Source of the DNA: Deltaproteobacteria bacterium
Lineage (GTDB): Bacteria > Myxococcota > Myxococcia > SLRQ01
Direction of reading: 5' to 3'
DNA: 64,000 nucleotides
Assembly: GCA_029210625.1 (NCBI GenBank)
Contig: JARGFU010000010.1
Location: 1 to 64,000, forward strand
The notes beneath the pieces are model-generated. The model ran no database searches. It saw only the letters and a list, made by a program, of their open reading frames with translations, and was not told the origin of the DNA. The position numbers and the translations under genes were made by a program. The stretch's first letter is position 1. Every line of letters begins with the position of its first letter. Positions 17,926-36,507 of this stretch are shown here, piece by piece.

Positions 17926-18020
17926 CACCAGCGCCGCCACCCTGACAACCGGCCGTAGGCAAGGTGGGGGGGGCTTGCTACCTTCTGCGCCCGAACGTCT
18001 CTTCTCACGGGAGGTGGGGA

Positions 18021-21000
18021 ATGCGCGGGATCCTCTGGACCCTGGCCCTGGTGGGTCTCTTCGCGGGCTGCGCCCAGAACGTGGGCGACATCGATCGCAC
18101 CCAGCCGGGCAAGCTGCGCAAGTCGGCCCTCGAGGGGGAGTGGTACTACCGCCAGACGGTGGTGGACGTGCCCTTCACCACCGGGGTGACCTTCATCGGC
18201 GAGCAGTCCTGGCTCGAGCGGGTGCGCTTCGAGATCAGCGAGGATCAGCTCACGGCCTACCGGACCTACGAGCGGGTGCAGGGCTCGGAGGGGCCCAGCA
18301 ACCTCCCGGGGGAGCCCTACCTGGGCGCGCCGGTGGCGGCCTTCCGGATCGTCAGCCACTTCGACGTGCAGCGGGAGTACAACCCCGCCACCGGCGAGCA
18401 GACCAACGTCATCGTCGAGAACGCCAGCGACCGGCCCTGGTACGACCGGGAGTACATGCGGGTCGACTGGTCGAGGAACCTGCTGGCGAACTTCGACTTC
18501 ATCGCCGCTGGTGACACGGCGATGGGGGTGACCGTGCAGGGGGCCTCCTACGCCGTCACCGATCCCGACGATCCCGACGCCCCGGTCTTCGGCACCTGGT
18601 ACGAGGACGGCTGGGAGGACGTGCGCGATCCGATGGTCTGGGGTGACCTCGAGTACATCGACTACTTCGACATCACCCAGCGGCTCCAGGTGACGCCCGA
18701 GACCTTCGAGATCTACTACGACGACGGCACCACCGAGGCCTGGCCCGCCTGCTGGTTCTACGAGTACGGGCCCTGGGACTGCGCGTCCCAGACCGTCGAG
18801 GTGCGGGGCTCCTTCCTGCGGGTCTTCGAGTCCAACTACGAGCCCCTCTACTACCCGGACAACGAGGTGGCCCGGGACGAGAACGGCGAGGCCATCGGCC
18901 TGCGCTGGAACGATCAGGTCGGCGACATGGTGCCCTGCCAGGTGGACGAGACCGCCGACTGCGAGCTCGTCCGCATCCCCTACTTCGACCGCTTCGGCTA
19001 CTTCCGCACCGAGCGGGAGACCTACGACCGGGGCTACGGGGTCACCGAGAAGGGCCGGATCTACCTGGCCAACCTCTTCAACCTCTGGAGCGACGAGACC
19101 GGCGCGCCCGAGCCCATCACCTACGTGCTCTCCCCCGGCTTCCCCGAGGCGCTGGTCCCCTCCGCCGAGGAGATCGCCAGCTGGTGGTCCGAGCCCCTGA
19201 AGACCTCCCTGGAGCAGGGCTGGGGCGAGACCCCGCCCGCCGAGATGTTCCGGGTGCAGCGCAACACCTTCCGGGTCGAGGGGGGGCGCGTCGTCGACCA
19301 CGGTCAGCGCAACGGCGACCTGCGCTTCAACTTCCTCTACTGGGTGGATGATCCGCAGCTCTACTCGCTGCTGGGCTACGGCCCCTCCTCGGCCGATCCC
19401 CTCACCGGCGAGATCGTGAGCGCCTCGGCCTACGTCTTCGGGGCCTCCATCGACGAGTGGGTGTCCCAGAGCGCGGACGTGATCGACCTGGTGCGGGGCA
19501 AGATCGACGAGCGGGAGTTCCTCCAAGGCGAGAACGTCGGGCCTGCCCTCTCGCGGCTCGGCAAGGAGCCCAGCTACGATCCGGTGGAGACCCGGGGCCG
19601 CGTCGAGCGCACGATGGAGCGGGGCCTGGGGGAGCGGCTGGCCCGGCTCCGGGAGGGGCCGCGCGAGCCCTTCCAGCGCGGCCGGGACTGGGCCGGAAGT
19701 CGGCTGCGGCGGGCGGACGGCGACCCCCGGGTCGACGCGCTCTGGAACGAGGAGATGCAGCTCTCCCTCGAGCGCCGCTTCGGCCGCCGCCTCACCCCGA
19801 GCGAGCGGCACGGCGGCCGGCTGCTGCGGGCGATGCGCAAGCACCGGCTGAAGCTCGGCGCCCGGGCGGTCGACCTGCGCGACTTCGAGGACGGCGCGGT
19901 GCTCGGCCTGGTGGAGGAGCTCCGGGACCAGCCGCGGGAGGTGATCCTCGCCCGTCTCCGGGAGTACCTCTTCAAGTCCACCGCGGCCCACGAGGTGGGC
20001 CACACCCTGGGCCTACGGCACAACTTCGCGGGCACCACCGACGCGCTGAACTTCCACGACGCCTACTGGGATGCCCGGGATCCGGGCGCCCGCACCCTCG
20101 ATCTGCCTACCGACGCCGAGGCGGCCGCCGGCGTGCGCGGCCACTCCTACTCCTCCCTGATGGACTACGGCTCGCGCTTCTCCTCCGACATCCGGGGGCT
20201 GGGCTACTACGACCGGGCGGCCATCGCTTTTGCCTACGGCGGGCTGGTGGAGGTCTTCGACAACCCGCCCGACTGGCAGCAGAAGGACGTCCTCTACTAC
20301 ATGGGCCTCGAGGACGCGGTGCACGACTACCTGCACTACACCTCGCTGCCTGACCTCTTCGGCGGCCTGCCCAACATGCGGGCGCGCAGCTTCGTGCCCG
20401 TCGAGGACTACATCGGCTACCTCACGTGGGATCCCGACGCGCCGGACCTCACCGACGCCGTGGTGCCCTACCGCTTCTGCTCCGACGAGTACGTGGGGGC
20501 CGTCTGGTGGTGCGACATGTTCGACGAGGGCGCCGACCCCTACGAGATCGTCGCCTACGCCGCGCAGGAGTACGAGGACTACTACATCTTCAACGCCTTC
20601 AAGCGGCACCGCCGCTACCTCGACCCCTTCGACTACTACTACTCGGTCTACTTCAACTCGATGATGCCGATGTCGCTGCAGTACCAGAACTGGCTCTTCG
20701 ACCAGTGGTACCGCTCGGGCGACTGGTACTGGATGTCCCAGGACGCGCCGGACTTCATCACCGACGAGGACTGGAACCTCGATCCCAACGGGGGGCTCTC
20801 CTACACCGCCGCCTCGATGCTGGGGATGAACTTCCTGGCGAAGGTCATCGCCACCCCGGAGCCGGGCTCCTACTGGACCGACCCCGACACCGGGCTGCTC
20901 ACCTGGTGGACCGATCAGCAGGACGTCATCTGCCGTTCGGATCAGAACTCGGCCGTCGATCCCTGCTCGGACCTCTACGTCCCCCTCGGGGAGGGGCGCT

Positions 21001-21761
21001 ACGCCCTCTCGGAGTTCGACGCCGAGAGCGGCTACTACTGGTACGAGCGCATCCGGGTGGTGGGCTCCTTCTGGGACAAGCTGGCCGCGGTCGAGACCCT
21101 GGCCGACCCCACCAGCTACTTCCTCGGCGTCGACGACGTGGGCGACTACACGACCTACATCCTCGGCTTCAACGTCGCCTTCCCCCACGCCGTGGAGACC
21201 CTCTTCGGGGCGATGGTGAACGACGACTACCGGAAGTTCGCGCCGCAGCTCGAGCCCGACGGCAGCATGAGCATCCTGCCGGTGCTCGAGGACGTGATCT
21301 CGGCCTACGGTGACCTGCCGGCCCCGGATCGTCCCGGCCCCTTCGTGGATCCCGCCACCAACTGGACCGTCTCCCTCTACGGCCTCTTCTACGGGATGGC
21401 CCTGCTCTCCGCGAACTTCGACATGTCCTTCCTGGACGGGGCGAAGATCTACCTGGAGGGCAGCGGCGAGGGCTTCACCCCCACCGCCGGCGCCGTCGTG
21501 GGCCGCTTCGAGAACCCCTACAACGGCCGGGTCTACCTGGCGGTGCAGAGCCCGGATCCCCTGACCTACTCGATGGGCTACGAGATGGTCGAGCGGGCCC
21601 AGCGGCTGGCTCACGATCCGGTGGACGGCGTGGTGGCGACCAACTGCCTCTACCGCGACGACCCGGCCTGCTGGGGCAAGCAGTGGGAGCTGCAGAACCT
21701 GATCGAGAACATCGAGGTGGTCCGCGGCTACCACGACCTCTTCGGCTACTCGATCTTCTGA
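18021..21761 (+). CDS. Large extracytoplasmic zinc metalloprotease (metzincin-like lipoprotein)
   Basis: 1246 residues from the ATG at 18021, which follows GGGAGGTGGGG. The lipobox GLFAGC places it in the envelope. The zinc site HEVGHTLGLRH has His657, Glu658, His661 and His667, and a Met-turn SLMDYG follows with Met714, both hallmarks of metzincins. The HEVGHTLGLRHNF form resembles the extended met-zincin group (DUF4953/DUF5117). Flanking regions are very rich in Tyr, Asp and Trp, and no other domain is recognised. It precedes the ABC genes by 41 nt on the same strand, so they could share a transcript. The substrate is unknown. Confidence 0.88.
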   Translation: MRGILWTLALVGLFAGCAQNVGDIDRTQPGKLRKSALEGEWYYRQTVVDVPFTTGVTFIGEQSWLERVRFEISEDQLTAYRTYERVQGSEGPSNLPGEPYLGAPVAAFRIVSHFDVQREYNPATGEQTNVIVENASDRPWYDREYMRVDWSRNLLANFDFIAAGDTAMGVTVQGASYAVTDPDDPDAPVFGTWYEDGWEDVRDPMVWGDLEYIDYFDITQRLQVTPETFEIYYDDGTTEAWPACWFYEYGPWDCASQTVEVRGSFLRVFESNYEPLYYPDNEVARDENGEAIGLRWNDQVGDMVPCQVDETADCELVRIPYFDRFGYFRTERETYDRGYGVTEKGRIYLANLFNLWSDETGAPEPITYVLSPGFPEALVPSAEEIASWWSEPLKTSLEQGWGETPPAEMFRVQRNTFRVEGGRVVDHGQRNGDLRFNFLYWVDDPQLYSLLGYGPSSADPLTGEIVSASAYVFGASIDEWVSQSADVIDLVRGKIDEREFLQGENVGPALSRLGKEPSYDPVETRGRVERTMERGLGERLARLREGPREPFQRGRDWAGSRLRRADGDPRVDALWNEEMQLSLERRFGRRLTPSERHGGRLLRAMRKHRLKLGARAVDLRDFEDGAVLGLVEELRDQPREVILARLREYLFKSTAAHEVGHTLGLRHNFAGTTDALNFHDAYWDARDPGARTLDLPTDAEAAAGVRGHSYSSLMDYGSRFSSDIRGLGYYDRAAIAFAYGGLVEVFDNPPDWQQKDVLYYMGLEDAVHDYLHYTSLPDLFGGLPNMRARSFVPVEDYIGYLTWDPDAPDLTDAVVPYRFCSDEYVGAVWWCDMFDEGADPYEIVAYAAQEYEDYYIFNAFKRHRRYLDPFDYYYSVYFNSMMPMSLQYQNWLFDQWYRSGDWYWMSQDAPDFITDEDWNLDPNGGLSYTAASMLGMNFLAKVIATPEPGSYWTDPDTGLLTWWTDQQDVICRSDQNSAVDPCSDLYVPLGEGRYALSEFDAESGYYWYERIRVVGSFWDKLAAVETLADPTSYFLGVDDVGDYTTYILGFNVAFPHAVETLFGAMVNDDYRKFAPQLEPDGSMSILPVLEDVISAYGDLPAPDRPGPFVDPATNWTVSLYGLFYGMALLSANFDMSFLDGAKIYLEGSGEGFTPTAGAVVGRFENPYNGRVYLAVQSPDPLTYSMGYEMVERAQRLAHDPVDGVVATNCLYRDDPACWGKQWELQNLIENIEVVRGYHDLFGYSIF

Positions 21762-21802: not shown

Positions 21803-22753
21803 ATGAGCACCGAGCCCGTCATCGTGGCCGAGGGCCTCGTGAAGCGCTTCGATGGCGTCGCCGTCGTCGACGGGGTGAGCTTCACCGTCGGGGCCGGCGA
21901 GGTGGTGGGCCTGCTCGGCCCCAACGGCGCGGGCAAGACCACCACCCTGCGGCTCCTCTCGGGGCTCTACGCCGCCGACGCCGGGAGCGCCCGGGTCGCG
22001 GGTGAGCCGATACGGGCCGGGGCCCTCCCCGGCGCGAGCCTGCGGGCCCGGGTGGGCCTGCTCACCGAGTCGCCGGGCTTCTACCCCCGCCTCTCGGCCC
22101 GCGAGAACCTGCGCTACTTCGCCGCCCTCTACGGGGCGGACGGCGGGGACCTCGAGGCGCGGATGGAGCGCCAGCTCTCCCGCCTCGGCCTCGCGGCCCA
22201 CGCCGACAAGCGCTTCGGGGCCCTCTCCCGGGGGATGAAGCAGAAGCTGGCGGTGATCCGGGCGCTCCTCCACCGCCCGCCGGTCGTCTTCCTCGACGAG
22301 CCCACCGTCGGCCTCGACCCCGAGTCGGTGGGCTCCCTGCGCGAGCTGGTCACCGAGCTCCGGGACGAGGGGACGGCGGTGCTGCTCTGCTCCCACCTCC
22401 TCGACGAGGTCGAGCGCCTCTGCCAGCGGGCGGTCTTCCTGGCCCGGCGGGTGGTGGGCATCCACCCGGTGGTCTCGGACGACCGCCTGGTGCGCGTCGA
22501 GCTCTTCGAGCGCGGCGCCTCCCCGGCCGAGCTGGCCGCGCGGCTGCAGGGCCTCGAGCAGCTCGAGGGGGCCCGGGCGGAGGGGCAGACTCTCCACCTC
22601 ACCCTGCGCGAGGCCGGCGAGATCGCCGAGGTCGTCCGCCTGCTGGTCGAGGCCCGGGCCGCCGTGCGCCGGGTCGAGCCGGTGCGGGTGGCCCTGGAGG
22701 GGGCCTACCTCGGCTTCCTGGCCGCGGCCCGCCAGGAGGGCCTGCTGCCATGA
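21803..22753 (+). CDS. ABC transporter ATP-binding protein (ABC-2 type)
   Basis: 316 residues. Walker A GPNGAGKTT (39-47), signature LSRGMKQK, Walker B VVFLDEPTVGLDP and the switch SHLLDEVERLC. The C-terminal 90 residues are the accessory region usual in ABC-2 exporters (DrrA/CcmA-like). TATGCT lies 11 nt before the ATG. It overlaps its permease by 4 nt. The cargo is not readable. Confidence 0.93.
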   Translation: MSTEPVIVAEGLVKRFDGVAVVDGVSFTVGAGEVVGLLGPNGAGKTTTLRLLSGLYAADAGSARVAGEPIRAGALPGASLRARVGLLTESPGFYPRLSARENLRYFAALYGADGGDLEARMERQLSRLGLAAHADKRFGALSRGMKQKLAVIRALLHRPPVVFLDEPTVGLDPESVGSLRELVTELRDEGTAVLLCSHLLDEVERLCQRAVFLARRVVGIHPVVSDDRLVRVELFERGASPAELAARLQGLEQLEGARAEGQTLHLTLREAGEIAEVVRLLVEARAAVRRVEPVRVALEGAYLGFLAAARQEGLLP

Positions 22754-23520
22754 GGACGATCTGGATCCTCCTCCAGCGCGAGCTGCGCGACACCCTGCGC
22801 TCGCCGGCCCTGCTGGCCTCGATGATCTCCCTGCCCATCACCGTGGTGGTCGTGCCCCTGGTGCTGGTCGTCTACCTCGATCGGGCCGCCCCCGAGGCGA
22901 CCCGGGCGGCCATCCAGCAGCTCTACGAGCTGAAGGCCGAGGACCCCACCGAGCTGCTGGTCGAGGCGGTGGCCTTCGCCTGGCTGCCGATCTTCCTCCT
23001 GATGCCGGTCTTCGTGCCGATCCTCCTCTCGGCCCAGTCGGTGGGCGGCGAGCGCGAGCGCAAGACCCTCGAGCCGCTGCTCGCGACCCCGGTCTCGACC
23101 ACCCAGATCGTCCTGGCCAAGAGCCTGGCCTCGGTGGTGCCCGCGGTGCTGCTCTGCTGGCTCTCGGCGGCGGTCTTCATCGGCGGCCTGGACTGGGTGG
23201 CCTACCGCGGCAACGGGAGCCTGCCCCTGCCGGATCTGCCCTGGGCGGTCGGCGTGCTCGTGCTCGGCCCCCTCCTCTCGATCTTCGGCAACGCCGTGGC
23301 GGTGGCGATCTCCGCGCGGGTGCGTGATCCGCGGGCGGCCCAGAACCTCGCGGCCATGACCGTGATGCCCGTCATCGGGCTGGGCATCACCCAGATCGCC
23401 GGGGGCGTGCGGCTGGGCATCGGCTTCTACGTCGTGGCGACGGTGGTGCTGGTCGCCCTCGACGTGGGCCTCGTCTACCTCGCCGCGGCCCTCTTCGACC
23501 GCGAGCGCCTCCTGCGCTAG
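22750..23520 (+). CDS. ABC-2 family permease
   Basis: 256 residues with about six membrane segments: ASMISLPITVVVVPLVLVVYL, WLPIFLLMPVFVPILLS, VVPAVLLCWLSAAVFIGG, VGVLVLGPLLSIFGNAVAVAI, MTVMPVIGLGITQIAGG and YVVATVVLVALDVGLVYLAAAL. The cytoplasmic block GGERERKTLEPLLATPVSTTQIVLAK is the ABC-2 signature seen in NatB-like exporters. It starts inside the ATPase gene. A 37-nt gap leads to the 1393-residue membrane protein, so a functional link with that gene is plausible but unproven. Confidence 0.9.
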   Translation: MRTIWILLQRELRDTLRSPALLASMISLPITVVVVPLVLVVYLDRAAPEATRAAIQQLYELKAEDPTELLVEAVAFAWLPIFLLMPVFVPILLSAQSVGGERERKTLEPLLATPVSTTQIVLAKSLASVVPAVLLCWLSAAVFIGGLDWVAYRGNGSLPLPDLPWAVGVLVLGPLLSIFGNAVAVAISARVRDPRAAQNLAAMTVMPVIGLGITQIAGGVRLGIGFYVVATVVLVALDVGLVYLAAALFDRERLLR

Positions 23521-23557
23521 GCTGCCCTCGCTCCAAAGCGAAAAGGGGGAAGCGCGA

Positions 23558-26500
23558 ATGACTCGCCACCTGTCCGTCGTCTCGGCTCTCGTCGTCCTCT
23601 CCGGTCTCTCGCTCCCGGTCGCCGCCGCCGAGCCCGTCGTGCCGCCGGCCCTCGCGGACTGGAAGGCCTGGGTGCTCGAGGGCCAGGAGGCGCAGCTCTG
23701 CCCGCTCGAGCAGGGCAACTCGGGGAGCCGGCGCTGCCGCTGGCCCTCCTCCCTCGAGCTCACCTTGAGCGCCTCCGGCGGGAGCTTCACCCAGGTCTGG
23801 ACCTTCTCGGCGCCCGGGGAGCTCCGCCTGCCCGGCGGCGGTGAGCACCCCGCCCAGGACGTGCTCCTCGACGGCCGCCCGGCCGCGGTCTTCCCCCGGG
23901 GGGAGGACCTCGCCATCGAGGTGCCCGCGGGGCGCCACACGGTGAGCGGCAGCTTCCTCTGGGACCGCCTCCCCGAGGTGCTCCAGGTCCCCGCCCAGAC
24001 CGGGCTGCTCTCCCTCTCGGTGGAGGGCAAGGCCATCCCCTTCCCGAAGCGGGAGGCCGACGGCCGGGTCTTCCTCCAGCAGCAGCAGGAGGAGAGCCGC
24101 GCCGAGGATCGGCTCGAGGTCCTCGTGCACCGCAAGCTCACCGACGAGGTCCCCCTGCGGGTGACCACGCGCCTGGAGGTGAGGGTCTCGGGGAAGAACC
24201 GCGAGGTCCTCCTCGGGCCGGTCGTCCTCCAGGACGGCATCCCCACCGGGCTCTCGGCGCCGCTGCCCGCACGCATCGAGGCGGACGGCAAGCTGCGGAT
24301 GCAGGTGCGGCCCGGGACCTGGACGATCACCGTCGAGTCCCGGCAGCCCGATCTCGTCGAGTCCCTCGGCGCGCCGAAGCTGCCTGCCCCCTGGCCCGCC
24401 GAGGAGATCTGGGTCTTCGAGGCGCGCCGGGACCTGCGGGTGGTCGAGGTGCAGGACGCGCCGGCGGTGGATCCGCAGCAGACCCGCCTGCCCCAGGAGT
24501 GGAAGGGGCTGCCCGCCTATGGCCTGCAGGCCGGCGCGAAGCTCACCCTGAAGGAGGAGCGCCGCGGTGACGTCGATCCGGCGCCGGATCAGCTGGAGCT
24601 CGAGCGGCAGTGGTGGCTCGACTTCGACGGGCAGGGGGTCACGGTGCAGGACCGGATCACCGGCGTGATGCACAGCGGCTGGCGGCTGACCATGCAGGCC
24701 CCCACCGAGCTGGGCCGGGTGGTCGTCGACGGCCGCGAGCAGCTGATCACCCGCCTGGGCGAGGGGCAGCCCTCGGGCGTGGAGGTCCGTCGGCGGCAGA
24801 TGCAGGTCATCGCCGACAGCCGCCTGGAGACCCCGGCGGCCCGGATGCCCGCGGTGGGGTGGAACCACGACTTCCAGCGGGTGAGCGGCCAGCTCCACCT
24901 GCCGCCGGGCTGGCGCCTCTTCCACGTCTCGGGCGTGGACAGCACCTCGCCCGACGACTCGGTCTGGATCGAGTCCTGGACCCTCCTCGATCTCTTCCTG
25001 GTGCTGGTGCTCACCCTCGCCCTCGGCAAGCTCTTCGGCTGGCGCTGGGGTGCGGTGGCCCTCGTCACCCTCACCCTGATCCTGCCGGACGAGGGGCCGG
25101 TCTGGGTCTGGGCCTTCGTCCTCACCTTCGAGGCGCTCTGGCGGGCGCTGCCGGGAGGCTGGCTGCGCAAGACCGCCTGGTCGCTGCGCGGCCTCTCGGT
25201 GCTGGTGCTGGTGGTGTGGACCATCGCCTTCATGGTGATGCAGGTGCGCACCGGCATGTACCCGATGCTCGAGCGCTCCTGGTCCACCATCGACGGCGGC
25301 TACGGCGGCGGCGGCTACACCTTCGACCTCCCCACGATCGGCGCGGCGGCGCCGATGGCCGGCAAGGGCGCCATGGAGCCGCCCACCGAGGCCTGGGACG
25401 AGTACGACGGCCGGGCCGAGGGCGGCGACATGGCCGGCGAGCTGATCGAGCTCGAGGAGATGACCAGCGAAGACGTCGGCAACCTCGCCCAGCAGGCGCA
25501 GCAGCTCGAGCAGACCTTCGAGCGCAAGAAGGGCCGCCGCTCCTGGGGCCTCTCCTCGCGCTCCTACGACAAGGCCGCCTCGCTCTCCTACCAGGTGGAT
25601 CCCAACTCGGTGGTGCAGACCGGCCCGGGCCTGCCGCGCTGGCAGTGGGAGGACGTGCGCCTGACCTGGTCGGGGCCGGTGGCGAAGGAGCAGGAGCTCA
25701 AGCTCTCCCTCCTCTCGCCCACCCTGAACCTGCTCCTCGCCCTCCTGCGGGTGGCGCTGCTCGGGGTGCTGGTCCTCTGCGTCCTCGGCGCCTTCCGGCC
25801 CGCGGGCTTCAAGGACCTCGGCGCCGGCGGGGCGGCCGCGGCGCTGCTCCTGGGGCTGCTCCTCCTGCCCGCCGCGGCGCGGGCCGAGCTGCCCTCGCCG
25901 CAGCTCCTCGGCGAGCTCCAGCAGCGGCTGCTGCAGGCGCCGCGCTGCGCGCCCACCTGCGCCTCCTTCAACCGGATGCAGCTGGACGCGACCCCGGCGG
26001 CCCTCACCCTGCGGCTGGAGGTCTCGGCGGCGGCCGACACCGCGGTGCCCCTGCCCGGCGACGCCCGGCACTGGCTCCCCTCGCGGGTCCTCCTCGACGG
26101 CAGCGACGCCGAGGGCCTCGCCCGGGGCGCGGACGGCAAGCTCTGGCTCCTCTTGCCCGCGGGCAAGCACCAGGTGCTCGCGACCGGCCCCTTGCCCGCG
26201 CGCGAGACGGTGCAGCTGCCCCTCGGGCTGCGGCCGCTCCACGTCAGCGAGCGGGTGCAGGGCTGGACCCTCGACGGCCTCCACGAGGACGGAGTGGCGG
26301 ACGACTCCCTCCAGCTCTCCCGCATCCGCGGCCAGGGGGAGGGGAGCGGCGAGCTGCAGGCCGGCACCCTCCCGGCCTTCGTGCGGATCGAGCGCCACCT
26401 CCACCTCGGCCTCGACTGGACCGTGGACACCACCTTCACCCGCCTGACCCCGGCGGACTCGGCGGTGGTCGTGGCCGTGCCCCTCCTCGAGGGCGAGAGC

Positions 26501-27739
26501 CCGACCACCGACGGGCTGCGCACCGAGGAGGGCAAGGTGCTGGTGAACCTCTCGCCGGGCACCAGCCACTTCGAGTGGCAGTCGGTCCTCGAGCCCCGCG
26601 ACGCGCTCAAGCTGGTGGCCGCCGAGACCACCGAGTGGATCGAGGTCTGGCGGATGGACGCCAGCCCGGTCTGGCACGTCGAGGCCGAGGGCATCCCGCC
26701 GATCCACACCCAGGCCGACGTGCCGGTGCGCGAGTGGCGCCCCTGGCCGGGTGAGGCCGTGGGCCTGACCGTCGTGCGGCCGGCGGCGGCCGAGGGTCAG
26801 CGCTTCACCATCGACCACAGCAAGCTCACCATCTCGCCGGGCCGGCGGGTGACCGACGCCACCCTCGAGCTCTCGATCCGGGCGAGCCGGGGAGAGCCCC
26901 ACACCCTCACCCTCCCCGAGGGCTCCCAGCTCCAGAGCGTGTACATCGACGGCACGGAGCAGCCGCTGCGCGCCAAGGAGCGGGAGGTGACCCTGCCGCT
27001 GCGCCCCGGCGCCCAGCAGATCAAGCTGGAGTGGCGGGAGACCCGGCCGGCCTCCTTCGTCTACGAGACCAGCCCGGTGGACCTGGGGACGCCCTCGGTG
27101 AACGCCGCGCTCACGGTGAAGCCCCCGGAGGGCCGGTGGATCCTCTTCGCCTGGGGCTCGGTGGCCGGGCCGGCGGTGCTCTTCTGGAGCCTGCTCATCG
27201 TGCTCCTCCTGGCCTCCGGGGTTCTCGACCGGGTGACCCTGACCCCCTTGCGGGTGCACCACTGGGCCCTGCTGGGCATCGGCTTCACCCAGTCCTCGGT
27301 CTGGGTCGGCGCCTTCGTCGCCGGCTTCTTCCTCTTCGTGGGGTGGCGCGGAAAGAAGACCGACCTCTCGCGCAACTGGTTCAACCTGCGGCAGCTCCTG
27401 CTGGTGGGCTGGGCCGGGGTCGTCGCCATCGTGCTGGTGGTGGCGGTGAGCCAGGGCCTCCTCGGCGAGCCGGACATGCAGATCAGCGGCAACGGCTCGG
27501 ACCGCTACGCCCTGCACTGGTTCGTCGATCGCGCGGAGCCGGTGCTGACCTCGGCCACGATCTGGTCGGTGCCGAGGATCGTCTACACCCTGCTGATGCT
27601 GGCCTGGGCCCTCTGGCTGGCGGTGGCCCTCCTGGGCTGGGTGAGGTGGATCTGGGAGTGCTTCAAGGCCGACGGCCTGTGGCGCTCGCCGCCCAAGAAG
27701 GAGAAGCCGGCCGGGAAGGAGGCCCCCACCGAGCCTTGA
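23558..27739 (+). CDS. 1393-residue membrane protein with two copies of one architecture
   Basis: It has no domain I can name. Signal peptide 1-24. The first half has a Cys pair near 47 and 60, a beta-rich exported region to about 470, and a membrane cluster from about 478 (DLFLVLVLTLALGKLFGW...). A Gly-rich segment and a coiled segment (NLAQQAQQLEQTF) follow, then a helix near 727-747. At about 760-780 LLLGLLLLPAAARA-ELP reads like an internal signal peptide. The second half repeats the plan: a Cys pair near 796 and 800, a beta-rich region, then a membrane cluster from about 1195. It follows the ABC-2 permease by 37 nt with a GGGGGA ribosome-binding site. A fusion of two secreted membrane proteins is likely. 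Confidence 0.8.
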   Translation: MTRHLSVVSALVVLSGLSLPVAAAEPVVPPALADWKAWVLEGQEAQLCPLEQGNSGSRRCRWPSSLELTLSASGGSFTQVWTFSAPGELRLPGGGEHPAQDVLLDGRPAAVFPRGEDLAIEVPAGRHTVSGSFLWDRLPEVLQVPAQTGLLSLSVEGKAIPFPKREADGRVFLQQQQEESRAEDRLEVLVHRKLTDEVPLRVTTRLEVRVSGKNREVLLGPVVLQDGIPTGLSAPLPARIEADGKLRMQVRPGTWTITVESRQPDLVESLGAPKLPAPWPAEEIWVFEARRDLRVVEVQDAPAVDPQQTRLPQEWKGLPAYGLQAGAKLTLKEERRGDVDPAPDQLELERQWWLDFDGQGVTVQDRITGVMHSGWRLTMQAPTELGRVVVDGREQLITRLGEGQPSGVEVRRRQMQVIADSRLETPAARMPAVGWNHDFQRVSGQLHLPPGWRLFHVSGVDSTSPDDSVWIESWTLLDLFLVLVLTLALGKLFGWRWGAVALVTLTLILPDEGPVWVWAFVLTFEALWRALPGGWLRKTAWSLRGLSVLVLVVWTIAFMVMQVRTGMYPMLERSWSTIDGGYGGGGYTFDLPTIGAAAPMAGKGAMEPPTEAWDEYDGRAEGGDMAGELIELEEMTSEDVGNLAQQAQQLEQTFERKKGRRSWGLSSRSYDKAASLSYQVDPNSVVQTGPGLPRWQWEDVRLTWSGPVAKEQELKLSLLSPTLNLLLALLRVALLGVLVLCVLGAFRPAGFKDLGAGGAAAALLLGLLLLPAAARAELPSPQLLGELQQRLLQAPRCAPTCASFNRMQLDATPAALTLRLEVSAAADTAVPLPGDARHWLPSRVLLDGSDAEGLARGADGKLWLLLPAGKHQVLATGPLPARETVQLPLGLRPLHVSERVQGWTLDGLHEDGVADDSLQLSRIRGQGEGSGELQAGTLPAFVRIERHLHLGLDWTVDTTFTRLTPADSAVVVAVPLLEGESPTTDGLRTEEGKVLVNLSPGTSHFEWQSVLEPRDALKLVAAETTEWIEVWRMDASPVWHVEAEGIPPIHTQADVPVREWRPWPGEAVGLTVVRPAAAEGQRFTIDHSKLTISPGRRVTDATLELSIRASRGEPHTLTLPEGSQLQSVYIDGTEQPLRAKEREVTLPLRPGAQQIKLEWRETRPASFVYETSPVDLGTPSVNAALTVKPPEGRWILFAWGSVAGPAVLFWSLLIVLLLASGVLDRVTLTPLRVHHWALLGIGFTQSSVWVGAFVAGFFLFVGWRGKKTDLSRNWFNLRQLLLVGWAGVVAIVLVVAVSQGLLGEPDMQISGNGSDRYALHWFVDRAEPVLTSATIWSVPRIVYTLLMLAWALWLAVALLGWVRWIWECFKADGLWRSPPKKEKPAGKEAPTEP

Positions 27740-27745
27740 GTTGGC

Positions 27746-27763
27746 GGGGCCGTCCACGGCCCT
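27746..27763 (+). terminator. Hairpin after the 1393-residue gene
   Basis: GGGCCG (27747-27752), loop TCCA, CGGCCC (27757-27762), extended by a G-T pair. The 6-7-bp GC stem lies 7 nt after the stop codon. No T-tract follows; the next bases form the -10 of the following gene. Confidence 0.4.
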
Positions 27764-27765
27764 GA

Positions 27766-27771
27766 TACAAT
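27766..27771 (+). promoter_or_regulatory. -10 element of the MopE-repeat gene, probable leaderless start
   Basis: TACAAT matches TATAAT in five of six bases and ends 7 nt before the GTG start at 27779. Transcription would begin at or next to the start codon. No Shine-Dalgarno sequence is present. Confidence 0.5.
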
Positions 27772-27778
27772 CCGGCGC

Positions 27779-30490
27779 GTGGGAAGGGGAATCAACGGGT
27801 CTGCGCTCTGCGCCTGGGTCGGGTCCGTGAGCGCCGTCGCGCTGCTCCTGGTGGGGGGCTGCGACTGCGGTGGCGCGGGCCTGCAGTCCGGGCGCCCCGT
27901 CATCAGCGTGCAGGTCACGGCGCTGGACTTCGGGGCGATCCCCGAGGCCACCCGCGAGGTGCGCGGCCTGCAGATCGACAACCCGGGCCTCAAGACCCTG
28001 GAGATCACCGCCACCATCGAGGAGGGCTCGCCCGACTTCGCGGTGGTCGGGGCGCAGCTCTCCGTCCCCCCCTCCCAGAGCGCGCAGCTGGAGGTGGCCT
28101 TCACGCCGGCGGACGAGGGCGAGGACTCGGCCGTCCTCCTGCTCACCTCCAATGACCCCCTCGAGCCGGAGCTGCGGGTGGACCTCCACGGCGGGCCCAT
28201 CCAGGCCCTCCTGGTGGCGGATCCCGATCCGGTGGTGGTCGTGGGCGACCAGCCCCTCGAGACCGTGGGGGTGACCCTGCGCAACGACGGGATGGCCCAC
28301 CTCGACCTGCGCTCGGTGGGGGTCGATCCCCTCGGCAGCCCCGACTTCTCGGTGCGCGCGACGGGGATCCCCACCGCGCTGCCCTACCGCCAGAGCCTCA
28401 CCGTCCAGGTGGACTACGCCCGCAGCACGAACCCCGATCAGGGGCGGATGGTGATCCTCTCCAACGACGCCGCCGGGGAGCAGAAGGTCGTGCCCCTGAT
28501 CCCCGCGCCGGTCGCCCTCTGCGCGGACGGGATCGACAACGACGGCGACGGCCTCACCGACTTCCCCGACGATCCGGGCTGCCTCGACGCGGTGGACAAC
28601 GACGAGCAGGATCCCCCCGAGTGCATCGACGACGCGACCCAGCCCTGCGGGGTCAGCGAGGGGAGCTGCGTGGCGGGCACCCGCACCTGCGCCGGTGGGC
28701 AGTGGGGTCCCTGCGAGGGGGCCGCGGGGCCGGGCACCGAGACCTGCAACGGCGAGGACGACGACTGCGACGGCACCACCGACGAGGGCATCTCGGCGCC
28801 CTGCGGGGCGGGCGCCTGCGCGGGCACCTCGACCTGCGTCGAGGACGCGGGCGTCGCGGGGGGCGAGTGGGGTCCCTGCGTGGTCCCCGGCGCCAGCGCC
28901 GAGACCTGCAACGGCGTCGACGACGACTGCGACGGGCAGACCGACGAGAACCTGCAGCAGGCCTGCACGGTGAACGCCTGCGTGGGCACCGAGACCTGCC
29001 TCGGGGGCGGCCCGAACGACTGGAGCGTCTGCCAGCCCGATACCGTGAACACCGAGACCTGCAACGGCGTCGATGACGACTGCGACGGGCAGACCGACGA
29101 GGGGCTCGGCGCGCCGACCTGCACCATCAACGGCTGCGCCGGCACCCGCGCCTGTCAGGGGAGCGGGGGCTGGTCGAGCTGTAACCCCGACTTCGTCGAC
29201 CCCGAGAGCTGCAACGGCATCGACGACGACTGTGATGGCGCCACCGACGAGGACGTGGCGCCCCAGGCCTGCACCACCACCGCGGGCTGCACCGGCACCC
29301 GCAGCTGTCCCCTCAACGGCGACGGACAGTGGGGAGCCTGCCAGCCCGACACGACGGCACCGGAGCTCTGCGACGGAGTGGACAACGACTGCGACGGGCA
29401 GACCGACGAGGCCTTCCCCTCCCTCGACACCCTCTGCTCGGTGGGGATCGGTGAGTGCAGCACCGACGGCATCGTGGTCTGCAACCTCGCGGAGACCGGC
29501 ACCGAGTGCTCGGCCAGCCCGGGCACGCCGGGCACCGAGATCTGCAACGGCCTCGATGACGACTGCGACACCTTCGACGACGACGGCCTGGGGCCGGTGC
29601 CCTCGGTGAACCAGAACGGCGCCTGCGCCGGCAACCAGGACATCTGCATGGGCAGCGCGGGCTACCAGCCCGATCCGGGCAACCACACCCCCACCACCGA
29701 GCTGTGCAACGGCGTGGACGACGACTGCGACACCGCGACCGACGAGGCCTTCCCGACCCTCGGGGCGGCCTGCAGCGTGGGCGCCGGAGAGTGCGCGAGG
29801 AGCGGGAACGTCGTCTGCGACGCCGCCCTCACCGGGGTGGAGTGCGACGCCACGCCCGGCGGGCCGATCAGCGAGCTCTGCAACGGGCTCGACGACGACT
29901 GCGATGGCGGCACCGACGAGACCTTCCCCACCCTCGGGGCGGCCTGCACCTCGGGCACCGGAGAGTGCGCGCGGAGCGGGAGCTTCGTCTGCGACGCGGC
30001 CCTGACCGGGGTGGAGTGCGACGCCACCCCGGGGACGCCGGGCACCGAGATCTGCAACACCCTCGACGACGACTGCGACGGCAGCACCGACGAGGGCGGG
30101 GTCTGCGGGGCCTGCGATCCCGACGGGACCTACTCGATCATCGCCGGCGGCCCGACCCTCTCCTACTCCTGCTGCGGAGGGCTGGTGGGCGTGACCGTCT
30201 CCTCCTTCACCCTCGCCAACGACGGCGCGCTGGCCACCTCGGCCCCGTCGGACCCCGTCCCCATGATCGGCGGTGCGACCTCCTGCAACGGGGGAAGCTT
30301 CGACGACCAGGGCTCCATCGCTGGCGGCTGCACCGAGATCTACCGGGTCGCGGGGACCTTCACCGACGCGAACACCTGGACCGGGACCTACTCGGTGACC
30401 TTCGTCGGCTCCCAGTGCGACTGCTTCGGGGGGCTCCTCGGCGCACCCTGCGTGAGTCAGAGCTGGCCCATCACCGCCCAGAAGCCCTGA
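27779..30490 (+). CDS. Lipoprotein with ASH-like domains and nine MopE-type repeats
   Basis: 903 residues from GTG. Lipobox LLVGGC followed by Asp at +2, which in E. coli would favour the inner membrane. Two ASH/choice-of-anchor-D-like beta domains (about 40-240: VTALDFGAIPEATREVRGLQ and its partner) lead to ADGIDNDGDGLTDFPDDPGC and then nine Cys/Asp motifs of the form CNGxDDDCDGxTDE between about 320 and 775, spaced about 45-60 residues. The motif matches the putative metal-binding repeat named after the MopE copper protein, and its Asp pattern would suit Ca2+. A short Cys-containing beta domain closes the protein. Surface display is likely. Confidence 0.85.
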   Translation: MGRGINGSALCAWVGSVSAVALLLVGGCDCGGAGLQSGRPVISVQVTALDFGAIPEATREVRGLQIDNPGLKTLEITATIEEGSPDFAVVGAQLSVPPSQSAQLEVAFTPADEGEDSAVLLLTSNDPLEPELRVDLHGGPIQALLVADPDPVVVVGDQPLETVGVTLRNDGMAHLDLRSVGVDPLGSPDFSVRATGIPTALPYRQSLTVQVDYARSTNPDQGRMVILSNDAAGEQKVVPLIPAPVALCADGIDNDGDGLTDFPDDPGCLDAVDNDEQDPPECIDDATQPCGVSEGSCVAGTRTCAGGQWGPCEGAAGPGTETCNGEDDDCDGTTDEGISAPCGAGACAGTSTCVEDAGVAGGEWGPCVVPGASAETCNGVDDDCDGQTDENLQQACTVNACVGTETCLGGGPNDWSVCQPDTVNTETCNGVDDDCDGQTDEGLGAPTCTINGCAGTRACQGSGGWSSCNPDFVDPESCNGIDDDCDGATDEDVAPQACTTTAGCTGTRSCPLNGDGQWGACQPDTTAPELCDGVDNDCDGQTDEAFPSLDTLCSVGIGECSTDGIVVCNLAETGTECSASPGTPGTEICNGLDDDCDTFDDDGLGPVPSVNQNGACAGNQDICMGSAGYQPDPGNHTPTTELCNGVDDDCDTATDEAFPTLGAACSVGAGECARSGNVVCDAALTGVECDATPGGPISELCNGLDDDCDGGTDETFPTLGAACTSGTGECARSGSFVCDAALTGVECDATPGTPGTEICNTLDDDCDGSTDEGGVCGACDPDGTYSIIAGGPTLSYSCCGGLVGVTVSSFTLANDGALATSAPSDPVPMIGGATSCNGGSFDDQGSIAGGCTEIYRVAGTFTDANTWTGTYSVTFVGSQCDCFGGLLGAPCVSQSWPITAQKP

Positions 30491-33707: not shown

Positions 33708-33837
33708 AAGTATCTGAAAATACTATGATTTGACCCCCTGGGGCCCCCGCCGGGCGCGGCAATGGGAGCCCCGGTGCGCGTCGGGTGGTGCTCCAGCGCC
33801 CCCGGACCCATTGCTTTCATCGAAAATTCAGGTACTT
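33708..33837. repeat. Imperfect inverted repeat element
   Basis: AAGTATCTGAA at 33708-33718 and AAGTACCTGAA on the minus strand at 33827-33837 bound a 130-bp segment. Both are followed inward by AT-rich bases and ATGA. GCAATGGG and CCCATTGC form a second, inner pair. This could be a small palindromic element or paired regulator sites. Confidence 0.35.
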
Positions 33838-33936
33838 AGCCCGGTCAGCCGGCGCCCTGGCGCTGGCATGGACGCTGCTATGAGGACACCTCGGTTCCGG
33901 GCCCCTTCCGGAAGACTCGCAGCAAGAGGAAAGCGC

Positions 33937-36507
33937 ATGGCTCACCGCTTCGTCGTCCCCGCTCTCGCCCGCAAGCTCATCGGCCTGCTCCCGGTGCTCT
34001 CCCTCGCGCTCCTGGCCGGCTGCCAGGGCGGCAGCGCGGGTCAGCTCCTCGAGGACGCGGTGCGGCCCGACGAGGAGGGCCTGACCCTCCTGCTGGCCCA
34101 GGACGACCTCCTCCACCGGCAGTTCAGCGGCGCGGCCGAGGGCGGCTTCACCACCGAGATCCTCGGCACCGGCGAGCGCAGCTTCAACCGGGTGGGCCTG
34201 CGCATCGACGCGCACCGCACGCCGGTCATCGAGGCCTCGGGCAGCCCGGACGGCGTCGCCTTCGGTCCCTGGCACCACGGCACCATCACCTACCAGGACG
34301 GCTTCGCCTACAACGCTCACGTCGACCTCGAGCACGGCAGCCGCTTCCTGCGCCTGCGCCTCTCGGGGATCGCCGAGGAGGACCTCTCCTTCCTCTCCCT
34401 CGAGGTCTTCACCTTCGAGCCCCTCGCCGGCCTCGATCCGGGCTTCGAGCCCGAGCTGCAGGACGCCCCGGAGGGCCTCGGTCAGCTGCGCTCGAACCTG
34501 GCCGCCGACGGCGTGGCGGTGATGCGCTCCCAGTGGGGGGCGCGGGCCACCCAGTGCACCTCGCGCCACACCCCCGTGCGGATGGCCATCCACCACACGG
34601 TGACCCCCAACAACGACACCTACGACATGCCCCGCCGGGTGCGGCAGATCCAGGCCTACCACATGGACAGCCGGGGCTGGTGCGACGTGGGCTATCACTT
34701 CCTCATCGGCCAGGACGGCGAGGTCTACCAGGCGCGGGAGGAGACCTACATCGGCGCGCACGTCGCCAACCACAACACGCAGACCGCCGGCATCTCCTTC
34801 ATCGGCGACTTCACCTCGATCGTCCCCAGCCAGGCCATGCTCGACGCCGGCGCGCGGATCGTCCGCTCCCTCTCGTCGACCTACGGCATCTCCATCGACC
34901 GCACCGCCATCAAGGGTCACCGCGAGTTCTCCGGCGCCTCCACTGCCTGCCCGGGCAACGCCTTCTACCCGACCCTCGACGCCTTCGTGGCCCTGGCGGC
35001 CTCCGGCGGCGGCGGCGGCGGTGGTGGCGGCGGGGCGACCAACGGCACCCTGCGGGGCGCGGTCTTCTGGGGCACCGACTTCGCGGCCGACATCAACGAC
35101 ACCGCCAAGCGGATCTCCGGCGCCACGGTGACCCTCTCCAACGGTGACGTCGACACCACCGACGCCGATGGCTGGTATCAGTTCGACGTCCCGGCGGGCA
35201 GCTACACCGCCACCATCACCGCCGCCGGCTACCAGAGCGGCACCCTCGCCCGCGACGTCAGCGCCGGCACCACCGCCTGGGGCAGCGTGATGCTCACCCC
35301 GGCGGCCACCTCCACCGGCACGGTGAAGGGCGTCGTCTTCTGGGGCGCCACCCTCGACGACTACGCGGTGAACGTCGGCGACGCCAGCAAGCGCATCGCC
35401 GGGGCGACCGTGACCTTCTCTCCCGGCGGCCGCAGCGCGAGCACCGACTCCAGCGGCTGGTACGAGATCGACCTGCCGGTCGGCACCTACACCCTCACCG
35501 CCTCGGCGGCGGGCTACCAGGACGCCACCCGGCCCGATCCGGTGACCGTCACCGAGAGCGCCGTCTCCTGGGGCTCGACCATGGTCCTCGGCGGCCCGAC
35601 CGTCGGGGTCGACGATCGGGCGGCGCCCATCGTGACGATCTCCAGCCCCTCCGACGGCGCGGTGGTGGACATCCCCGAGCTGATCGTCGTGGGCACCATC
35701 GTCGACGACTCGCCCATCGCCTACCTGCGGGCCAACGGCAGCGACGTGACCGTGACCAACGGCACCTTCCGCCACGCCACCTTCCTGACCCCGGGCGAGA
35801 ACCAGATCGTCTTCGAGGCCGCGGACGACCTCAACAACGTCGGCACCCAGACCCTCACCGTGACCTACGTGGGTGAGGAGGCGAGCGGCGTGCGGGGCTT
35901 CGTCTACGACGCCGCCCGGGGCCCCGAGGTGCGGATCGCCGACGCGACGATCCAGCTCACCGGCCCCGAGGACCGGCAGCTCAAGAGCGACGCCGCCGGC
36001 GCCTTCGACCTCGACCTCCCGGTGGGCAACTACCTCCTCTCCATCCGCGCCCCGGGCTTCGACCCCTACCAGAACGCGGTGGTGGTCACCGCCGGCTCCC
36101 GCACCCGGGTCGAGGCCGGCCTGGCGCTCGAGGGCAGCAGCGCCGGCAACGGGGTGGTGGAGATCACCTTCCCGGCGGCGGGCGAGCTCATCGAGGCCAA
36201 GCGGGTGCTGGTCACCGGCAAGGTCGATCCGGAGGTCGTCGTGCGCGTCGTGGTCTCCGGTCAGGACGCCACCCTGGTGGGGGAGGACTTCAGCAGCGAG
36301 GTGACCCTCGCCAAGGGCGCCAACCACCTGGTGGCCGTGGCCTTCGACGCCAGCGGCGCCGAGCTGGCCCGGGCCACCGTCGACGTCACCCGCAAGGCGG
36401 GCGCGCTGGGCTGCCAGAGCGCCGGCGGCGGCGCCCCCGGCCTCGCCTTCACCTTCCTCGGCCTCCTGGGGCTGCTGGGCGTCAGCGCCAAGCGTAGGCG
36501 GCGCTAG
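33937..36507 (+). CDS. N-acetylmuramoyl-L-alanine amidase (PGRP fold) with Ig/CarboxypepD-like repeats and MYXO-CTERM-like anchor
   Basis: 856 residues from the ATG at 33937 (ribosome-binding site AAGAGGAAAG). Lipobox ALLAGC. An N-terminal beta region to about 190 is followed by an Amidase_2/PGRP domain (about 200-355) with zinc ligands His219/220 (AIHHT), His328 (KGHREF) and Cys338 (TACPG). A poly-Gly linker leads to two tandem carboxypeptidase-regulatory-like modules (both with FWG, KRIxGATV and GWYxxD), an Ig-like module, a third regulatory-like module and another Ig-like module. The C-terminus GCQSAGG, hydrophobic helix, KRRRR resembles the MYXO-CTERM sorting signal. It should cleave the peptidoglycan stem-peptide link at the cell surface. 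Confidence 0.9.
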   Translation: MAHRFVVPALARKLIGLLPVLSLALLAGCQGGSAGQLLEDAVRPDEEGLTLLLAQDDLLHRQFSGAAEGGFTTEILGTGERSFNRVGLRIDAHRTPVIEASGSPDGVAFGPWHHGTITYQDGFAYNAHVDLEHGSRFLRLRLSGIAEEDLSFLSLEVFTFEPLAGLDPGFEPELQDAPEGLGQLRSNLAADGVAVMRSQWGARATQCTSRHTPVRMAIHHTVTPNNDTYDMPRRVRQIQAYHMDSRGWCDVGYHFLIGQDGEVYQAREETYIGAHVANHNTQTAGISFIGDFTSIVPSQAMLDAGARIVRSLSSTYGISIDRTAIKGHREFSGASTACPGNAFYPTLDAFVALAASGGGGGGGGGGATNGTLRGAVFWGTDFAADINDTAKRISGATVTLSNGDVDTTDADGWYQFDVPAGSYTATITAAGYQSGTLARDVSAGTTAWGSVMLTPAATSTGTVKGVVFWGATLDDYAVNVGDASKRIAGATVTFSPGGRSASTDSSGWYEIDLPVGTYTLTASAAGYQDATRPDPVTVTESAVSWGSTMVLGGPTVGVDDRAAPIVTISSPSDGAVVDIPELIVVGTIVDDSPIAYLRANGSDVTVTNGTFRHATFLTPGENQIVFEAADDLNNVGTQTLTVTYVGEEASGVRGFVYDAARGPEVRIADATIQLTGPEDRQLKSDAAGAFDLDLPVGNYLLSIRAPGFDPYQNAVVVTAGSRTRVEAGLALEGSSAGNGVVEITFPAAGELIEAKRVLVTGKVDPEVVVRVVVSGQDATLVGEDFSSEVTLAKGANHLVAVAFDASGAELARATVDVTRKAGALGCQSAGGGAPGLAFTFLGLLGLLGVSAKRRRR

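Follow-up and report, generated by a model that had tools for sequence, protein, structure and literature searches.

In Bradyrhizobium japonicum, cytochrome b and cytochrome c1 are derived from a single precursor, FbcH, which is cut at an internal signal peptide. To our knowledge, bacterial genes seldom join two membrane proteins through an internal signal peptide, and FbcH is the known example. The 1393-aa protein studied here resembles FbcH in that one bacterial gene encodes two inner-membrane proteins joined via an internal signal peptide with a predicted site for signal peptidase I. However, FbcH joins two unrelated subunits of the bc1 complex, whereas the family of the 1393-aa protein joins paralogues and is spread over two phyla. 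A literature search on FbcH, internal signal peptides and the Azoarcus homologue (see below) found nothing relevant in the paper library searched. The two-fold repeat of one helix, a large periplasmic loop and five helices is also reminiscent of the RND/MMPL family, although the loops of the 1393-aa protein are all-beta and the first helix of each half resembles a cleavable signal peptide. No match to the RND/MMPL family was obtained, either by sequence (Pfam, PDB sequences) or by fold among the Foldseek matches listed. The third point of comparison is Ost1 (ribophorin I), a non-catalytic subunit of the eukaryotic oligosaccharyltransferase (OST); it has two luminal beta domains that resemble each other, and it binds glycosylated peptides (PMC7226087). 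The periplasmic regions of both halves of the 1393-aa protein resemble Ost1 in fold only; Ost1 possesses one membrane helix, compared to five per half here, and there is no sequence match to its family (no Pfam and no PDB sequence match).

The gene was studied in a window of 64,000 nucleotides (the whole stretch of DNA that was analysed), where it follows an ABC-2 gene pair; the positions of these three genes in the initial annotation were all correct:

21803-22753, + strand: ABC ATPase of the NatA/CcmA/DrrA type (Pfam ABC_tran, 8e-32)
22750-23520, + strand: ABC-2 permease (Pfam ABC2_membrane_2, 1e-16)
23558-27739, + strand: 1393-aa ORF, a single frame for two paralogous secreted membrane proteins

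The permease gene and the 1393-aa ORF lie on the same strand with a gap of 37 bp, a ribosome-binding-like stretch (AAAGGGGGAAG) is present 5' of the ORF, and a search for a terminator-like site between the two genes found none. This layout agrees with the earlier suggestion that the 1393-aa protein and the adjacent ABC-2 pair form an export or envelope machine. However, an ABC-2 permease flanks the family gene in 0 of approximately 35 relatives (some contigs are short, so that the distant flank is not always visible), and the permease has relatives in 52 of 58 related genomes, the majority of them without the 1393-aa family gene. ATPase matches near the family gene were encountered in only three of the approximately 35 relatives and are generic (28-32% identical). 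The placement next to the ABC-2 pair is, therefore, real within the window but not a property of the family, and co-occurrence with the ABC genes was not found. The ABC ATPase and permease are judged not to be part of the system of the 1393-aa protein and a joint machine is highly improbable; a link restricted to the lineage of this one genome is possible. Clustering of flanking ORFs also revealed no constant neighbour of the family gene. The upstream ORFs of 20 relatives are of diverse, unrelated types (among them GGDEF, ALAD, MCP, PNTB, IS4 transposase, aminotransferase, HAD and esterase) or do not match Pfam. The lack of a constant neighbour favours a self-contained unit.

Upstream in the window, 41 bp before the start of the ABC ATPase gene, lies the gene of a 1265-aa protein (17964-21761, + strand) with a Met-zincin (DUF4953) match around the HEVGHTLGLRHN site. 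Downstream, 39 bp after the 1393-aa ORF, a 903-aa protein is encoded (27779-30490, + strand) that contains nine MopE copper-binding-type motifs and a HYDIN-like Ig (choice-of-anchor D) domain, and further on a 925-aa protein (33730-36507, + strand) combines an N-acetylmuramoyl-L-alanine amidase domain with repeated CarboxypepD_reg/Glucodextran_B domains. A 2099-aa open frame (23387-29686, - strand) runs antisense to the 1393-aa ORF; comparable antisense frames, present in most of the relatives with high GC content, look like artefacts that mirror codon usage.

The 1393-aa protein has no match in Pfam or NCBIfam at E <= 1, and a search of PDB sequences with a profile of 23 relatives gave no match either. 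A Pfam scan of these 23 relatives yielded only four isolated weak matches, each in one member. The protein thus belongs to no family of the libraries searched, in line with its earlier designation as a candidate for an undescribed system. Relatives nevertheless occur in 33 of 195 genomes of Myxococcota (a few as fragments or weak matches only) and, by profile search, in 32 of 399 genomes of Pseudomonadota (about 25 of these at full length, the others as fragments or weakly matching). They are also present in several named assemblies of both phyla, and a plasmid of Azoarcus sp. KH32C carries a full-length relative (WP_015452075) annotated as "hypothetical protein." Full-length relatives are mostly 31-49% identical and nearly all are encoded by one ORF of approximately 1350-1590 aa; this includes all 25 strongly matching pseudomonadotal loci that were fetched and the Azoarcus locus (1348-1542 aa). 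The gene is single-copy wherever it was found whole. In a phylogenetic tree most sequences cluster with others of their phylum, although at least two moves from one phylum to the other are apparent. It had been proposed to look for the two halves as separate genes, but no convincing split was found among the genomes examined, and partial matches were traced to contig ends (such as L179) or to a truncated copy that is fused with unrelated sequence (L075). The 1393-aa protein thus represents a conserved, single-copy family across two phyla without a name in the databases searched.

The domain plan of the protein, which was derived from the sequence and from AlphaFold models of the two halves made separately (mean pLDDT of 78.6 for half A and 87.4 for half B), is as follows:

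23558-23629, + strand: N-terminal signal peptide, residues 1-24, ending PVAAA/EP (sequence; low-confidence helix at residues 10-16 in the model)
23630-24967, + strand: periplasmic beta region of half A, residues 25-470, with conserved C48 and C60 (AlphaFold, Foldseek, Cys counts)
24983-25258, + strand: membrane cluster of half A, four helices, residues 476-567 (AlphaFold)
25649-25786, + strand: beta hairpin and fifth membrane helix of half A, residues 698-743 (AlphaFold)
25811-25885, + strand: internal signal peptide, residues 752-776, with predicted cleavage at A776/E777 (25885/25886) (column counts, shuffles, pLDDT)
25886-27157, + strand: periplasmic beta region of half B, residues 777-1200, with conserved C797 and C801 (AlphaFold, Foldseek, HHalign to half A)
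27182-27463, + strand: membrane cluster of half B, four helices, residues 1209-1302 (AlphaFold)
27512-27667, + strand: beta hairpin and fifth membrane helix of half B, residues 1319-1370, with a basic cytoplasmic tail behind it (AlphaFold)

Most elements of this plan had been recognized in the initial annotation and were recovered here: the N-terminal signal peptide is present, the beta-rich exported domains and membrane clusters are seen in both half models, and the close Cys pair of each half is conserved among 58 relatives (C48 in 54, C60 in 55, C797/C801 in 57). The two models share the same order of elements, i.e., a hydrophobic N-terminal helix, approximately 30 beta strands, four membrane helices, a beta hairpin and a fifth membrane helix. 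In half A the hairpin and fifth helix are preceded by a variable linker of low confidence in the model, and a conserved motif, QTGPG.P.W.W (residues 687-697), in which G689 and G691 are invariant, stands directly before the hairpin.

Profile-profile alignment of residues 25-575 with residues 776-1393 by HHalign, using 56 sequences, gave a probability of 98.9 and an E-value of 1.9e-17 over 425 collinear columns. With 31 sequences and half B taken as residues 757-1393 the E-value was 2.5e-13, and in the controls, with either half reversed, it was 0.05-0.07. The similarity between the halves, the lack of which would have spoken against the fusion of two secreted membrane proteins proposed earlier, is thus well above chance and, together with the matching models, supports that proposal. 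Taken alone, the membrane clusters of the two halves gave no profile alignment. Half A and half B also look alike at their mature starts (E..VPPAL and E.LPSPQLL, respectively), which suggests that the signal peptide was duplicated along with the whole secreted protein. The two halves are, therefore, supported as true paralogues that arose by tandem duplication/fusion of two secreted membrane proteins.

The internal segment that had been noted as resembling a signal peptide was found at residues ~752-776 and is conserved family-wide. Across the 56 usable relatives a basic stretch is followed by a short hydrophobic core, in many cases by P771, and then by A-x-A directly in front of the mature start of half B. 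The n-region has K/R at 752-753 and a mean net charge of +2.6 over residues 741-760. A776 (-1) is Ala in 54 of the 56 and A774 (-3) in 47, with residue 775 (-2) free; A776 ranks among the approximately 96 best-conserved columns of the entire protein, while the segment before it drifts freely. Of the 56 sequences, 52 have AxA in the 20-residue stretch that precedes P779, versus 36 ± 3 when this stretch is shuffled (maximum 44 in 500 shuffles); at four other helix ends AxA occurs in only 6-24 of 56. The pLDDT of the AlphaFold model falls below 50 exactly at residues 770-777. These column counts and shuffles were used instead of a small position matrix derived from 19 signal peptides of E. coli, which was too noisy to decide and ranked the best site of the junction region first in only 19 of 58 proteins. 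A separate internal translation start was also considered and was rejected; the window gene contains no ATG, GTG or TTG codon between residues 745 and 776, which makes separate initiation directly before the internal signal peptide unlikely.

The simplest reading of the junction A-x-A is that of a predicted signal peptidase I site, which would make the protein a precursor yielding two chains. The conserved AxA after a hydrophobic stretch could, however, belong to an uncut signal anchor instead, in which case residues 752-776 would form a sixth membrane helix in a single polytopic protein (1+5/1+5 helices) with two large periplasmic loops that would work as a transporter or channel. Such a protein agrees with the number of helices and loops, and two pseudo-symmetric halves are usual in transporters, but in an uncut helix there is no reason for the conservation of Ala at -1 and -3 with a free -2. 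Furthermore, the membrane segments contain few charged residues and no RND-like proton relay, a beta hairpin interrupts each cluster before the fifth helix, and an RND fold match is absent for both halves among the matches listed. We consider an uncut transporter, therefore, somewhat unlikely.

Fold comparison provides an indication of what the periplasmic regions may do. The best PDB fold match of each half independently is Ost1/ribophorin I (Foldseek E-values of 2e-8 to 9e-6, probability 1.00). It is followed in both halves by the N-terminal domain of M1 peptidases (probability 1.00, with approximately 140-185 aligned columns in most matches); in half B integrin chains rank between these two. 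Whole-chain TM-scores of the Ost1 and M1 N-domain matches are low (0.12-0.29 overall, 0.13-0.29 for Ost1), which is what a superposition of single domains alone would give. The fold likeness gives the kind of domain, not membership of the Ost1 or M1 families. The beta regions of the family resemble Peptidase_M1_N (LTA4H, aminopeptidase N) in fold, but the family lacks the M1 catalytic domain, and identity as an M1 aminopeptidase is not supported, with no Pfam M1 match and HExxH in only 1 of 58 relatives. Sequence homology to M1 N-domains was considered and dismissed, as weak matches of single sequences vanish in profile-profile comparison (E 0.1-0.4). No catalytic motif common to the family is visible. 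The genomic distribution of the family gene in Myxococcota is associated neither with STT3 (3 of 33 genomes that carry the gene versus 13 of 162 that do not) nor with exosortase (8 of 33 versus 26 of 162), counting families over cut-off in both cases. That the family is a widespread bacterial membrane complex, formed by two paralogous products of one precursor processed by signal peptidase, with Ost1-like periplasmic modules, i.e., a counterpart of the eukaryotic ribophorin fold acting on envelope polypeptides or glycans, is a speculative and, in our opinion, unlikely interpretation.

Some lineages do carry peptidase genes next door. In five related pseudomonadotal loci (L116, L118, L119, L123 and L124) a gene for a secreted M23 peptidase lies directly upstream of the family gene and a gene with a zinc ribbon and an FGE-sulfatase domain downstream, a block that may hint at a clade-specific partner. 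Two distantly related loci have an M1 aminopeptidase gene as same-strand neighbour (downstream in L073, upstream in L130), where by a rough estimate about 0.1 case would be expected by chance at approximately 4 M1 genes per genome. Given also the resemblance of the fold to the M1 N-domain, the beta regions might present substrate to these peptidases. However, these arrangements are restricted to certain lineages, with neither M23 nor M1 at most loci and unrelated genes as the remaining neighbours, and the profile comparison with the M1 N-domain was null. A peptidase partnership is, therefore, quite unlikely.

The reading that we favour, with a probability of approximately 0.6, is that of a precursor cut at the internal signal peptide into two paralogous inner-membrane proteins that stay together in a binding or scaffold role. 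The family, the duplication, the domain plan, the conserved signal peptide at the junction and the absence of an ABC link were computed directly; we infer from them the actual cleavage, the pairing of the products and the binding or scaffold role. The present gene would have arisen when the gene of a secreted inner-membrane protein was duplicated in tandem and the stop codon between the copies was lost. Half A would be sent to the Sec translocon by the N-terminal signal peptide and, with the chain back in the cytoplasm after the fifth membrane helix of half A, the second complete signal peptide (752-776) would re-start export, followed by a cut by signal peptidase I after A776. This would release two paralogous inner-membrane proteins of about 752 and 617 aa in a 1:1 ratio, each with a periplasmic beta region of ~430 residues, five membrane helices and a conserved Cys pair. 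The two released chains probably assemble together and would stay so as a pseudo-symmetric pair. The periplasmic region is a sandwich of the type seen in Ost1 and in the N-domain of M1 peptidases, and the family has no zinc-protease motif in common; a non-catalytic role is, therefore, most likely, with the pair binding a polypeptide or glycan in the periplasm or serving as a scaffold for an envelope enzyme. A counterpoint to this precursor model is that two genes would do if both chains were merely needed together, and that a fusion that never splits is left unaccounted for. The occurrence in two phyla of paralogues that are joined and essentially never split in the genomes examined indicates that the fusion itself is probably under selection.

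Our results describe a large, conserved family of envelope proteins for which Pfam and NCBIfam hold no model. With a complete signal peptide predicted within the chain, it offers a sharp test case for in-chain processing of a polytopic protein by signal peptidase I.
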